From Saprospirales bacterium GYS_P2D (lineage in GTDB: Bacteria; Bacteroidota; Bacteroidia; Chitinophagales; Saprospiraceae): a DNA stretch of 64,000 nt. How positions within the stretch are numbered: position 1 is the stretch's first letter; every line of letters begins with the position of its first letter. Below are positions 24,870 through 29,442 of the stretch, piece after piece. Under the pieces are notes generated by a model. It was not told where the DNA came from and did no database searches. It worked only from the letters and a program-made list of their open reading frames with translations. The stretch covers positions 62,001 to 126,000 of the forward strand of contig WUUP01000003.1 in NCBI GenBank assembly GCA_009833045.1. The letters run 5' to 3'. The position numbers and the translations under genes were made by a program.

Positions 24870-25391
24870 ATGAGGTCAGAACTAATCAAAAAGCAGCAGT
24901 CAGACCCAGGATCGCATGGACTGCCAAAGGACTATCCTACGCCTCCCGTGGACAAGGATCTACTATTCTACATACAGCGAAATCAAAATCACGACACAAT
25001 AGTCTATAAGCTGAATCGGACCCTCGATGGCCTGATCAATAAGGATCTCCCTATGCACGCCTACTGGATCAAATATACAGAAGGGGGTATCAGCAGAGAG
25101 CTCAACCAGATGCAGTCAAAATTGGCTTTTGGATATGAGTCACGAGAGATCAATCTTGATTTATACGCTTTCCAATTCGTATCTTACAAAGAGCTAACAT
25201 TTTATATAGTCCGTAAGGAGGATGACACCTACCAAGTGATCTTCAACCTAAATGGTCGAAGGGTCAAACTCAATCACATTTATGTCTATGCCATGGAGTT
25301 TGGTGTATTCCCAGATGTGAAATTCATAGAATTTTATGGCGAGGAGCCCGATACCGGAGTATCCGCCTACGAAAAAATCAATCTATCCTAA
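24870..25391 (+). CDS. DUF4833 protein, first gene of the sphingolipid cluster
   Basis: Protein of 173 residues matching DUF4833. Typical stretches are LLFYIQRNQNHDTIVYKLNR (about 31-50), HAYWIKYTEGG (about 62-72) and the end KVKLNHIYVYAMEFG-like segment (about 132-146). The N-terminus, rich in Pro and Asp, has no signal peptide. The stop overlaps the next start by one base (TAATG), so it is translationally coupled to the fatty-acid hydroxylase. DUF4833 has no known activity; the tight linkage to lipid hydroxylase and serine palmitoyltransferase suggests a role in sphingolipid formation or transport. That is inference from context only. Confidence 0.8.
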   Translation: MRSELIKKQQSDPGSHGLPKDYPTPPVDKDLLFYIQRNQNHDTIVYKLNRTLDGLINKDLPMHAYWIKYTEGGISRELNQMQSKLAFGYESREINLDLYAFQFVSYKELTFYIVRKEDDTYQVIFNLNGRRVKLNHIYVYAMEFGVFPDVKFIEFYGEEPDTGVSAYEKINLS

Positions 25392-26023
25392 TGGCGAAGA
25401 AGCTTTACGTATCTAACTCTGAGAAGTCTATTCGACTATTTGAAAATCCATTTTTAGAGGCACTCTCAAAGGTGCACTTCTCGATTCCACTATTCGTATT
25501 TCTCCCGATCATCGGCTATCTATACTATCTGGGCATAGCAGGCGGTATGAGTATCGGATCATTCGCACTATGGGTAGTTGGAGGATTTGTGGTATGGACT
25601 ATCACAGAGTACGCATTGCATAGATTTGTGTTTCATTATCATCCTACATCAGAGTTTGGTAAGAAGATACACTTCATCTTTCACGGGATACATCATGACT
25701 ATCCGAGAGATCGTCTGCGCTTAGTGATGCCACCATCAGTGAGTATTCCATTAGCGACAGGATTTTTCTTTTTGTTCAGAGCCTTCGTAGATGCGCCTGA
25801 GCTATATCCGTTTTTTGGAGCATTCCTCAATGGATATTTGATATATGACATGTTTCACTATGCGATTCATCACCTCGAGGTTAAAGGAAAGCTGTGGAAC
25901 ACACTAAAGACTCATCATCTCAAGCACCATTATAATGATCCTGACAAGGGATTTGGTGTGAGTAGTCCTATTTGGGATATTATCGCTGGGTCTGATTTTG
26001 ACAAAGGAAAACTAAATCATTAA
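25391..26023 (+). CDS. Fatty acid hydroxylase / sterol desaturase family protein
   Basis: Membrane-embedded di-iron hydroxylase of 210 residues with about four hydrophobic helices and the histidine-box set of the fatty-acid hydroxylase superfamily: HRFVFHYH (about 77-84), HFIFHGIHHDYPRDRLRLV (about 94-112), HYAIHH (about 156-161) and LKTHHLKHHY (about 172-181). The HGIHHDYP and GFGVSSPIWD motifs resemble yeast Scs7/FA2H, which 2-hydroxylate the fatty-acyl chain of ceramides. Overlap with the DUF4833 gene and position before serine palmitoyltransferase support alpha-hydroxylation of sphingolipid acyl chains here. The family is certain, the substrate inferred. Confidence 0.9.
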   Translation: MAKKLYVSNSEKSIRLFENPFLEALSKVHFSIPLFVFLPIIGYLYYLGIAGGMSIGSFALWVVGGFVVWTITEYALHRFVFHYHPTSEFGKKIHFIFHGIHHDYPRDRLRLVMPPSVSIPLATGFFFLFRAFVDAPELYPFFGAFLNGYLIYDMFHYAIHHLEVKGKLWNTLKTHHLKHHYNDPDKGFGVSSPIWDIIAGSDFDKGKLNH

Positions 26024-26079
26024 TCGACTGAGAACCCTCTTTTTGCTACTAACAGCCCTAAGGGAGAGGATTTTAGTCA

Positions 26080-26087
26080 TATATTTG
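26080..26087 (+). promoter_or_regulatory. -7 promoter element of the serine palmitoyltransferase gene
   Basis: TATATTTG matches TAnnTTTG 43 bp before the start codon, in the 106-bp gap after the hydroxylase gene. No TTG at -33; it may give the downstream three genes their own transcription. Confidence 0.4.
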
Positions 26088-27338: not shown

Positions 27339-28452
27339 TATTGTCTCGGCTACCGGCAAGCTAATCAAAGACTATATCAATTTTCCTCATGAGCTATATG
27401 CTGATGACGAAAACTACGTACCTGAGCTCTATATGGCTCAGAAAGACATGTTCAATAGGAAGAAGAATCCATTCTTTGAGCATGCTGAGGTAGAGTCATT
27501 CTTAGCTATGAGAGGCGATAAAATCGTCGGTCGGATATCCGCAATACTCAATAAAAACTACAACGACTACCAAAAAGCAAATGCAGGTTTCTTTGGCTTC
27601 TTTGATGTCATCGATGACTATGAAGTAGCCAAAGCATTACTGGATAAAGCGGTAGAATGGTGCCGTAACAAGGGTCTGGATCAAATCATCGGCCCTACTA
27701 ACTTCAGCACTAATGATACAGCAGGCATCTTGATCGATGGCTTTCATGAGCCAGCTAAGATCATGATGACCTATAATAAGCCCTACTATCAGGACTTCGT
27801 GGAGCGATATGGCTTTGAGAAGGAGATGGATCTATACGCCTACATTCTCTATACTAAGAAAGCATCGGAGAAGTCAATACGTCTTGCTCAGACACTCGAG
27901 GAGCGACTACAGCGTCAAGGGATCACCTTCCGAAATATCAACCTAAAGAAATTTAAAGAAGAAGTCGCAGCCATCCGAGATATCTACAATGATGCCTGGG
28001 CTGACAACTGGGGCTTCGTGCCATGGACAGACGCTGAACTCGAGCATCTGGCGAATGAGCTAAAAATGTTGGCCAATCCTGAATGGATCTACATGGCCGA
28101 GGACAATGGCAAGCCAATTGGATTTGGCCTGACACTACATGATGTTAATGAAGTGACTAAAGGCTTCAAAAAAGGAAGGCTCTTCCCATTCAACATTTTC
28201 AAGCTCCTGCGTAAGAAAAATAAGACTCGCTTTGTGCGCATCTTAGCCCTCGGAGTGAAAAATGAATATCGTCGAAAGGGAATCGAAGCCATATTCTTCG
28301 CTAAAAACATCCTCCAAGCTCGTAAAGAAAATGTGATCGCTGGAGAAGTATCATGGGTCCTCGAAAATAACGTGGAGATGAATGCCTCTGCTGTCAAGCT
28401 CAACTCTGAGCTCTATAAGACCTACCGCATCTATAGATACAATATTAAATAA
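27328..28452 (+). CDS. GNAT-like N-acyltransferase, candidate bacterial ceramide synthase
   Basis: Protein of 374 residues of the large GNAT-like acyltransferase group that includes bacterial ceramide synthase (bCerS of Caulobacter). A GNAT fold appears in [20 protein letters not shown] (about 53-72) and a second in the C-terminal half, with [19 protein letters not shown] (about 291-309) as acyl-CoA loop. ATG at 27328 is chosen; it gives the family start [20 protein letters not shown] and overlaps the SPT gene by 11 bp, whereas the upstream in-frame start lies well inside SPT. Four bases separate it from the SDR gene. I infer N-acylation of the sphingoid base; the activity is not proven by sequence. 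Confidence 0.8.
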
Positions 28453-28455
28453 GCC

Positions 28456-29442
28456 ATGAGCAAGATCTTGATCACTGGAGCCAGCGGATTCGTTGGGAGT
28501 TTTTTAGTAGAGGAAGCTCTAAGCCGTGGTCTGGATGTGTATGCAGGTATACGCTCTACCAGTAGTCGTAAGTGGCTTCAGGATCCAAAGATTAACTTCA
28601 TCGAGCTCAATCTCAGTGATCGAGACTCACTACAGCATGATATAAGGCAGCATCAGTTTGACTATATCATCCACAATGCTGGCCTGACTAAGGCTAATAA
28701 AATAGCTGACCTTTTCAAGGTCAATGCTGACTACTCGCACAATCTGGCACAGGCGGCATTAGCCAGTCAGCATCTGAAAAAATTTTCCTTCATGAGTAGT
28801 CTGGCTGCCTATGGCACTGCTGACTATCAAGAAAGCAAAGTAGTCGCTCCCGATAGCCCACCGAGACCTATCACCAGCTACGGAAAAAGCAAGTTGAGAG
28901 CAGAAGAAAAGCTACTCGACATCTCCGATCTCCCACTCATGATATTTCGCCCTACAGGGATATTTGGCCCACGAGAGGGAGATTTCCTACAGGTATTCAA
29001 AAGTATAAAGAGTGGTATCGCACTACAGGTCGGGATGTCAGAACAGTGGCTCACCCTCATCTATGTCAAAGACTTAGTGAGAGTAATACTCGATGCGACG
29101 CTATCTACTCAGGCAGATCGAGCCTACTTCGTATCGGATGGAAATCTATATAGGGGTAGCGAATTCAACAGTCTGATCGCTAAGCATCTGGGCAAATCAC
29201 CTTTTCACCTCAAGGTACCTCTACCTATCGTATCAGCTATAGCGACGATCACTGATATCAGCTCACGGATCACTGGACAATCGAACATTCTCAGTAGAGA
29301 TAAACTGCCTGAAATCAAGTCTCGAAGCATGGACTGTGACATCTCTAATCTCGTCCAAGATCACAACTTCAGACCACTGTATACTCTCGATCAGGCTATC
29401 GCCGAAACAGCAGATTGGTATACCAATAATGGGTGGATATAA
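28456..29442 (+). CDS. NAD-dependent epimerase/dehydratase (extended SDR), candidate CerR-type reductase
   Basis: Extended short-chain dehydrogenase of 328 residues. The dinucleotide motif is ITGASGFVGSFL (about 5-16), the catalytic Tyr and Lys are in SYGKSK (about 142-147), and FRPTGIFGPREGD (about 163-175) is the substrate-domain strand of epimerase-like SDRs. Four bases separate it from the acyltransferase gene. In Caulobacter an epimerase-like SDR (CerR) reduces the oxidised ceramide made by SPT and bCerS; the same order here suggests that role. A sugar-nucleotide epimerase is the alternative, but no sugar genes are adjacent. Confidence 0.82.
   Translation: MSKILITGASGFVGSFLVEEALSRGLDVYAGIRSTSSRKWLQDPKINFIELNLSDRDSLQHDIRQHQFDYIIHNAGLTKANKIADLFKVNADYSHNLAQAALASQHLKKFSFMSSLAAYGTADYQESKVVAPDSPPRPITSYGKSKLRAEEKLLDISDLPLMIFRPTGIFGPREGDFLQVFKSIKSGIALQVGMSEQWLTLIYVKDLVRVILDATLSTQADRAYFVSDGNLYRGSEFNSLIAKHLGKSPFHLKVPLPIVSAIATITDISSRITGQSNILSRDKLPEIKSRSMDCDISNLVQDHNFRPLYTLDQAIAETADWYTNNGWI

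Follow-up and report, generated by a model that had tools for sequence, protein, structure and literature searches.

The genome of Saprospirales bacterium GYS_P2D (Bacteroidota; Saprospiraceae) appears to encode an inositol-phospho-(2-hydroxy)dihydroceramide pathway that is split between contigs, with two conserved proteins, DUF4833 and DUF5686, as likely accessory parts. We assign this explanation a probability of roughly 60%. The stretch of DNA analyzed, referred to here as the window, comprises 64,000 nucleotides of contig WUUP01000003.1 (positions 62,001 to 126,000 of the forward strand; assembly GCA_009833045.1). The window carries the ceramide half of the split system, and the inositol half is on another contig of the same genome. 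An earlier inspection of the window (the original prediction) had read five consecutive genes, for DUF4833, a fatty acid hydroxylase, serine palmitoyltransferase (SPT), a GNAT-like acyltransferase, and an epimerase-type short-chain dehydrogenase/reductase (SDR), as a ceramide biosynthesis cluster. The open reading frame list, the DNA, and Pfam matches confirmed all five genes, on the + strand, at positions 24870 to 29442. The ceramide reading appears sound, with ceramide synthesis and an acyl-chain hydroxylase well supported by the sequence, and the interpretation as a whole is partly supported.

We infer the reactions, the product, and the accessory roles from gene families, a diagnostic SPT residue, synteny, and gene fusions, all of which are read from sequence, and from a barrel that is a feature of a predicted model. 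SPT would condense serine with a fatty acyl thioester. N-acylation of the condensation product would fall to the GNAT protein, and reduction of the 3-keto group to the SDR. An FA2H-like enzyme would hydroxylate the acyl chain. Phosphatidylinositol would be made by MIPS, PIPS, and a PgpA-type phosphatase, encoded on the other contig, and a PAP2 enzyme would transfer phosphoinositol to the ceramide. DUF5686 is probably an outer membrane barrel of the BamA/TamA/Sam50 kind that would insert or receive the lipid, and DUF4833, predicted to be a small beta protein, may act alongside the enzymes for the head group and for hydroxylation or may pass the lipid on.

Serine palmitoyltransferase

The pyridoxal phosphate (PLP) enzyme of the cluster (402 amino acids; positions 26130 to 27338, + strand; Pfam Aminotran_1_2, 188.1 bits) scored 707.2 bits against the NCBIfam equivalog model for SPT (CFB), NF047600, which has a cutoff of 640. 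Its closest solved structure in a PDB sequence search was Sphingobacterium SPT (3a2b, 537.5 bits); the cysteate-C-fatty acyltransferase 28eh and the structure 7u7h gave 272.7 and 256.4 bits. We take 7u7h to be the Alistipes SulA structure, although the PDB record names it otherwise. SulA, the cysteate acyltransferase of Alistipes and Flavobacterium, belongs to the same alpha-oxoamine synthase superfamily as SPT, and Lys281 separates the two according to the available text of PMC9304779. The window enzyme lacks the SulA-type Lys at this position and has Ala instead, as do 45 of 45 scorable SPTs from 47 related loci with an SPT, two of which were not scored. By family score and diagnostic residue, the PLP enzyme is assigned as an SPT and not as KBL, BioF, or a sulfonolipid enzyme.

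The original prediction had named a glycine C-acetyltransferase (KBL) identity as the outcome that would overturn it, and this was not borne out by the NCBIfam scores. KBL belongs to the same superfamily as SPT, and the KBL and BioF models also match. However, the enzyme fell under every equivalog cutoff of the KBL, BioF, and ALAS models (for KBL and BioF membership, 416.3 of 460, 331.6 of 493, and 387.7 of 426.45 bits), whereas the SPT model was passed at 707 versus 640 bits. KBL was therefore rejected, and it is extremely improbable that the enzyme is KBL and the cluster unrelated to lipids. A cysteate acyltransferase identity was rejected as well, on the SPT model score, the nearest structure, and the Ala residue.

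A separate SulA-like enzyme is encoded on contig C25 of the same genome (G000:C25:89795-90925; L072:9275-10498). This alpha-oxoamine synthase gave 615 bits to 28eh and has Lys at the SulA diagnostic position, serving as an internal control. Its presence suggests that the organism may make sulfonolipids as well, and the GNAT protein, the SDR, or the hydroxylase could be shared between the two pathways. For the window cluster itself to make hydroxylated sulfonolipids instead of sphingolipids is improbable, however, because the clustered enzyme is an SPT by model, nearest structure, and residue, and because inositol lipid genes are linked to the clustered SPT in relatives.

Acyltransferase, reductase, and hydroxylase

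The GNAT protein (374 amino acids; positions 27328 to 28452, + strand, ATG at 27328; Pfam Acetyltransf_1, 41.5 bits, cutoff 20.7) and the SDR (328 amino acids; positions 28456 to 29442, + strand; Pfam Epimerase, 113.6 bits) fit bacterial ceramide synthase (bCerS) and ceramide reductase (CerR), judging from gene context and domains. The GNAT-type domain is encoded adjacent to SPT and a reductase, as bCerS would be, and the SDR is of the epimerase type and lies within the SPT-GNAT set, as CerR would. The Caulobacter Spt-bCerS-CerR pathway has the same kinds of synthase, acyltransferase, and reductase (PMC11087976, available text), and relatives of the window cluster add inositol, hydroxylase, and barrel genes. 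CerR is reported there to be periplasmic, whereas the window SDR begins with MSKILITGASGFVG and shows no leader before the nucleotide-binding motif (no signal-peptide program was run).

The GNAT protein had no PDB sequence match at an E value of 0.1. Plasmid-borne relatives are found in Rubrobacter (38.6% identity) and Sphingomonas (34.5% over the whole length). The Rubrobacter set has the SPT-GNAT-SDR order of the window, with identities of 46%, 38.6%, and 27%. It is located on the plasmid NZ_CP007515.1 of the actinomycete Rubrobacter radiotolerans, near type I-D CRISPR genes.

The hydroxylase (210 amino acids; positions 25391 to 26023, + strand) has FA_hydroxylase (57.8 bits, cutoff 31) as its sole Pfam domain, and its only PDB relatives at an E value of 0.1 were the yeast Scs7 entries 4zr1 and 4zr0. 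The window protein aligns with the catalytic domain of Scs7/FA2H, histidine motifs and RLVMPP stretch included, and the histidine motifs are invariant in seven of seven cluster members. Eukaryotic FA2H/Scs7 enzymes carry an N-terminal cytochrome b5 domain. In contrast, no such domain was found in the window protein, which means that electrons would have to come from a separate donor, and we classify the protein as Scs7-like only. Members of the family occur in 114 of 395 genomes (E value, 1e-30), and with so wide a distribution the hydroxylase is not on its own a marker of this cluster. Literature searches, mostly of titles and abstract openings, yielded no bacterial gene for 2-hydroxy ceramide hydroxylation.

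Inositol lipid genes on another contig

Contig C26 of the same genome carries genes for DAGK, GtrA, PgpA, MIPS, PAP2_3, and CDP-OH-PT proteins together. The PAP2 protein has a PAP2_3 domain, and its best NCBIfam model is phosphoinositol dihydroceramide synthase (256.1 bits against a cutoff of 480). The best model for the CDP-OH-PT protein is PIPS BT1523 (212.4 of 350 bits), and the PIPS catalytic motif, DX2DGX2AR...GX3DX3D (PMC9246714, available text), is intact. These inositol-phosphoceramide-type genes, a half of the system that the original prediction did not include, suggest that 2-hydroxy-dihydroceramide, the product originally proposed, is probably not the end product. From the combined gene content, the likely product is inositol-phospho-2-hydroxy-dihydroceramide. 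A further FA_hydroxylase protein of 422 amino acids is encoded on C26 (L077:9149-10417), divergent from the inositol genes; its only NCBIfam match was OlsE, far under the cutoff.

The inositol lipid cluster of Bacteroides thetaiotaomicron, BT_1522 to BT_1526, encodes MIPS, a PgpA-type phosphatase, GtrA, PIPS, and a PAP2-type synthase (PMC9246714 and PMC8791184, available text). The same five kinds of genes are present on C26, together with an adjoining DAGK gene. Relatives of the window cluster differ from the Bacteroides cluster in adding SPT, GNAT, SDR, an FA2H-like hydroxylase, DUF5686, and DUF4833. The locus number of the Bacteroides SPT, BT_0870, is distant from BT_1522 to BT_1526, and the word hydroxylase does not occur in the available main text of PMC9246714.

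Joined clusters in relatives

A search for DUF4833 in 395 genomes of the phylum yielded 30 matches in 28 genomes, that of the window included. At six of these loci (L046, L052, L053, L055, L057, and L060), ceramide, inositol, DUF5686, DUF4833, and hydroxylase genes form one cluster, with the order SPT-GNAT-(SDR)-MIPS-(PgpA)-GtrA-DUF5686-PIPS-DUF4833-hydroxylase-PAP2, in which the genes in parentheses were labeled at only some of the loci. The joined cluster, with MIPS, PIPS, PgpA, GtrA, and PAP2, occurs in Chitinophagaceae, Sphingobacteriaceae, and Cyclobacteriaceae. A joined cluster in another member of the Saprospiraceae (L096) has a gene order that differs from that of the window. The original prediction had called clustering of all the steps unusual. 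This agrees with the available text of PMC11334938 for the Bacteroidota studied earlier, in which the three ceramide genes of sphingolipid producers are not close together, but it does not extend to the present relatives, in which a larger cluster with inositol lipid genes recurs.

A second set of loci was drawn from named genomes as the best 80 of 547 relatives scanned with an alignment of the hydroxylases (A2), which was used because the DUF4833 alignment did not have enough conserved stretches. Gene labels depend on profiles and bit thresholds that we chose, distances depend on mechanically assigned start codons, and absences are upper limits because some loci are short. DUF4833 was present at 50 of these 80 loci, a set picked by similarity to cluster hydroxylases and thus biased, so that its counts are not population frequencies. 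At all 50 it was upstream of the hydroxylase gene on the same strand, and at 47 it was within 111 bases. The 50 loci with DUF4833 frequently had SPT (40 loci), GNAT (39), SDR (36), MIPS (34), PIPS (40), PAP2 (39), and DUF5686 (46). At the 30 loci without DUF4833 the corresponding counts were 7, 8, 8, 5, 6, 6, and 7, and in 20 cases the hydroxylase stood alone. The loci with DUF4833 represent 14 genera: Ferruginibacter, Niastella, Chitinophaga, Paraflavitalea, Arachidicoccus, Filimonas, Pedobacter, Mucilaginibacter, Parapedobacter, Chryseosolibacter, Chryseolinea, Xanthocytophaga, Pontibacter, and Dyadobacter. Genera were taken from record titles, and families were looked up for Mucilaginibacter, Niastella, and Pontibacter.

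DUF4833

The DUF4833 protein of the window (173 amino acids; positions 24870 to 25391, + strand; Pfam, 120.4 bits, cutoff 23.1) is predicted to be mostly beta, with a mean predicted local distance difference test (pLDDT) score of 87.8. Its sequence gave only chance-level matches to solved structures (best E value, 0.11). Fold searches gave no clear match with VIA (best Z, 3.1; 61 residues aligned; root mean square deviation [RMSD], 5.0) or Foldseek (best E value, 0.015; TM, 0.26), a result that does not show a new fold. DUF4833 was not found by name in any paper in our literature search.

The clusters place DUF4833 immediately 5' of the hydroxylase gene, with PIPS either preceding DUF4833 or joined to it as a fusion. 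PIPS::DUF4833 fusions numbered 13, with 11 in the 80 named-genome loci and 2 in the phylum survey, and a hydrophobic stretch separates the two domains in 9 of the 11, which is all that could be scored. DUF4833 was found in 11 of 18 genomes with an NF047600 SPT versus 17 of 377 others (8 of 12 versus 6 of 159 at the genus level), in a test that ignores shared ancestry. The co-occurrence with SPT that the original prediction had proposed to check was thus observed, and its suggestion that DUF4833 is a pathway component gained support from synteny and fusion. DUF4833 is not linked solely to the hydroxylase, however, since outside the window PIPS is the neighbor on its other side. A role confined to inositol lipids was dropped, as MIPS was present in 9 of 28 genomes with DUF4833 versus 51 of 367 others, a weak association.

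The 30 places in the phylum survey comprise 10 of the ceramide/inositol type, 8 of a second type, and 12 without a linked lipid gene among those tested. Of the first 10, six are the joined clusters, and two are PIPS fusions accompanied by DUF5686 and PAP2. The remaining two are the window and L042, in which DUF4833 occurs with DUF5686 and SDR, with SPT approximately 10 kb along the contig. The second type (L044, L045, L047, L048, L049, L054, L056, and L062) has a KR-type SDR, a PhyH dioxygenase, CDP-OH-PT, GtrA, and DUF4833, with PhyH in place of the FA2H-like hydroxylase. The survey alignment (A1; window sequence, L001) has 28 rows, as a fragment (L028) and a copy with internal stops (L022) were excluded. 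The latter, also recorded as L063 in genome G343, has two such stops and is a decayed gene.

The N termini of DUF4833 proteins differ. The window protein shows no signal peptide (maximum hydropathy over 12 residues, 0.25), and an in-frame TAA is located 12 bases 5' of its ATG. In contrast, 31 of the 36 standalone copies scored have a hydrophobic N terminus, with hydropathy of 1.57 or more. It is therefore unlikely that all copies share one compartment; the same gene in the same place seems to have products located in different compartments.

DUF5686

The DUF5686 gene is 100 bp 5' of the DUF4833 gene on the same strand (positions 22148 to 24769, +; 873 amino acids; Pfam DUF5686, 200.6 bits; CarbopepD_reg_2, 71.8 bits) and belongs to the ceramide gene set. 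Its product has a hydrophobic N terminus, a CarboxypepD_reg-like domain, and a predicted C-terminal barrel of the outer membrane type. The predicted model, made from an alignment (A3) of the window protein and 29 of 50 sequences longer than 800 amino acids from the named loci, has a mean pLDDT of 79.0 and a barrel of 16 strands as counted along the DSSP line. The barrel matched a chain of the SAM complex best (Z, 19.6; 295 residues aligned; RMSD, 4.2) and also matched chains of BamA (Z, 18.0) and TamA (Z, 17.3). A C-terminal aromatic residue and a hydrophobic N terminus are present in all 30 aligned proteins.

Omp85 superfamily proteins have a VRG(F/Y) motif in loop 6. DUF5686 shares the predicted C-terminal 16-strand barrel with BamA, TamA, and Sam50 but differs in that none of the 30 barrels has a VRG(F/Y/W)-type motif and in that Pfam found CarbopepD_reg_2 instead of a POTRA domain (the N-terminal part was not fold-searched alone). 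From the predicted model, DUF5686 thus looks like an Omp85-type barrel, and we do not claim membership in that superfamily. No paper naming DUF5686 was found in the literature search.

Alternative roles for DUF4833 and DUF5686

Several observations weigh against a split pathway assisted by DUF4833 and DUF5686. The PAP2 and CDP-OH-PT proteins of C26 are both under their equivalog cutoffs and are therefore assigned only as working like the named enzymes. Twelve of the 30 DUF4833 places lack a linked lipid gene of those tested, although one of these regions is just 4.7 kb long, two of the copies are disrupted or incomplete, and one locus (L064) has a weak DUF5686 match of 48 bits. Five loci (L127, L129, L134, L150, and L152) have SPT, GNAT, SDR, MIPS, PIPS, PAP2, DUF5686, and the hydroxylase but no DUF4833. 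The DUF4833 proteins of the window and of L079, L080, L081, L083, and L096 have no hydrophobic N terminus (hydropathy of at most 0.43). Flavobacterium johnsoniae TamL, an Omp85-type protein, was judged an unlikely lipid carrier (PMC12045153, available text). When GtrA was deleted from the Bacteroides inositol cluster, thin-layer chromatography showed no change in inositol lipids (PMC9246714, available text), so the presence of a gene in a cluster of this kind is no proof that it has a role there. The neglect of shared ancestry in the co-occurrence test and the biased choice of the 80 loci count on the same side.

If ceramide synthesis is correctly read and the two DUF proteins only share its neighborhood, as passengers or as proteins with a general function in the envelope, then the 12 places without lipid genes, the five otherwise full clusters, and the GtrA result are readily accommodated. 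So is a second DUF5686 elsewhere in the genome, which is nearer the Pfam model (788 bits versus 197 for the window copy). We nevertheless regard this as unlikely because DUF4833 adjoins the hydroxylase in 14 genera, is fused to PIPS in 13 proteins, and reappears in a second, different type of lipid cluster. A tentative but stronger possibility is that DUF4833 assists the lipid enzymes (the CDP-alcohol phosphotransferase or the hydroxylase) as an accessory subunit instead of acting as a carrier. Fusion to PIPS, the overlap of the window's DUF4833 and hydroxylase genes, and the lack of a signal in the window copy and in those of five related loci point in that direction, as do the eight places of the second type, in which DUF4833 again follows CDP-OH-PT and GtrA. 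However, the signal-like N termini of most standalone copies do not fit a subunit, and the hydrophobic stretch that precedes DUF4833 in nine fusions would locate DUF4833 across the membrane from the enzymes.

The explanation we prefer, a split pathway with DUF4833 and DUF5686 as accessory parts, also has a more specific version, which we consider doubtful. It envisages a dedicated sphingolipid delivery line in Bacteroidota, encoded together with sphingolipid synthesis, in which a periplasmic DUF4833, fused to PIPS in some species, would take inositol-phosphoceramide from the inner membrane and DUF5686 would insert it into the outer membrane. In the branch that includes the window, in which DUF4833 has no signal peptide, its role would have shifted to the cytoplasmic side. 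The CarboxypepD_reg-like domain of DUF5686 would occupy the place of POTRA domains.

Gene arrangement in the window

The five members of the originally predicted gene set stand, but that set omitted the upstream DUF5686 gene and a 106-bp gap between the hydroxylase and SPT genes (positions 26024 to 26129, + strand). Overlaps of 1 bp (DUF4833-hydroxylase) and 11 bp (SPT-GNAT) were correctly predicted; the gap between the GNAT and SDR genes is 3 bp (positions 28453 to 28455), not 4. The order DUF5686-DUF4833-hydroxylase-SPT-GNAT recurs at four further loci (L079, L080, L081, and L083), indicating that the arrangement is not due to chance. The SDR gene is next at the first three, and none was labeled at L083, a 4.9-kb contig with approximately 0.7 kb left past the GNAT gene.

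A motif scan of the 106-bp gap found TATATTTG at positions 26080 to 26087, a fit to the -7 promoter consensus of Bacteroidota, and it is therefore uncertain whether the genes form one operon. The sequence TANNTTTG, which fits the Bacteroidota promoter motif, occurs 49 times in the whole window versus 29.8 expected, a count reached by none of 100 shuffles. A separate promoter for spt within the gap is possible, but it is a lead only, because it depends on one 8-base motif that is overrepresented throughout the window. Downstream of the SDR gene, at positions 29533 to 31552, are closely spaced genes for an ECF sigma factor, an anti-sigma factor (RskA_C), and an HD-domain protein, and it is possible that these genes regulate the cluster.

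Implications

No flippases or lipid transporters have been identified for bacterial sphingolipids, according to the available text of PMC11087976. DUF4833 and DUF5686 may bear on how these lipids cross the periplasm. The main interest of the cluster is in these two conserved proteins, one of them a likely outer membrane barrel, which are encoded within a synthesis cluster and are candidate accessory or export parts that may help lipids reach the cell surface. Deletion mutants of culturable bacteria from soil and water, for example, Chitinophaga, Pedobacter, or Mucilaginibacter species, would allow their roles to be tested directly. The cluster also predicts which environmental Bacteroidota would make hydroxylated inositol sphingolipids.

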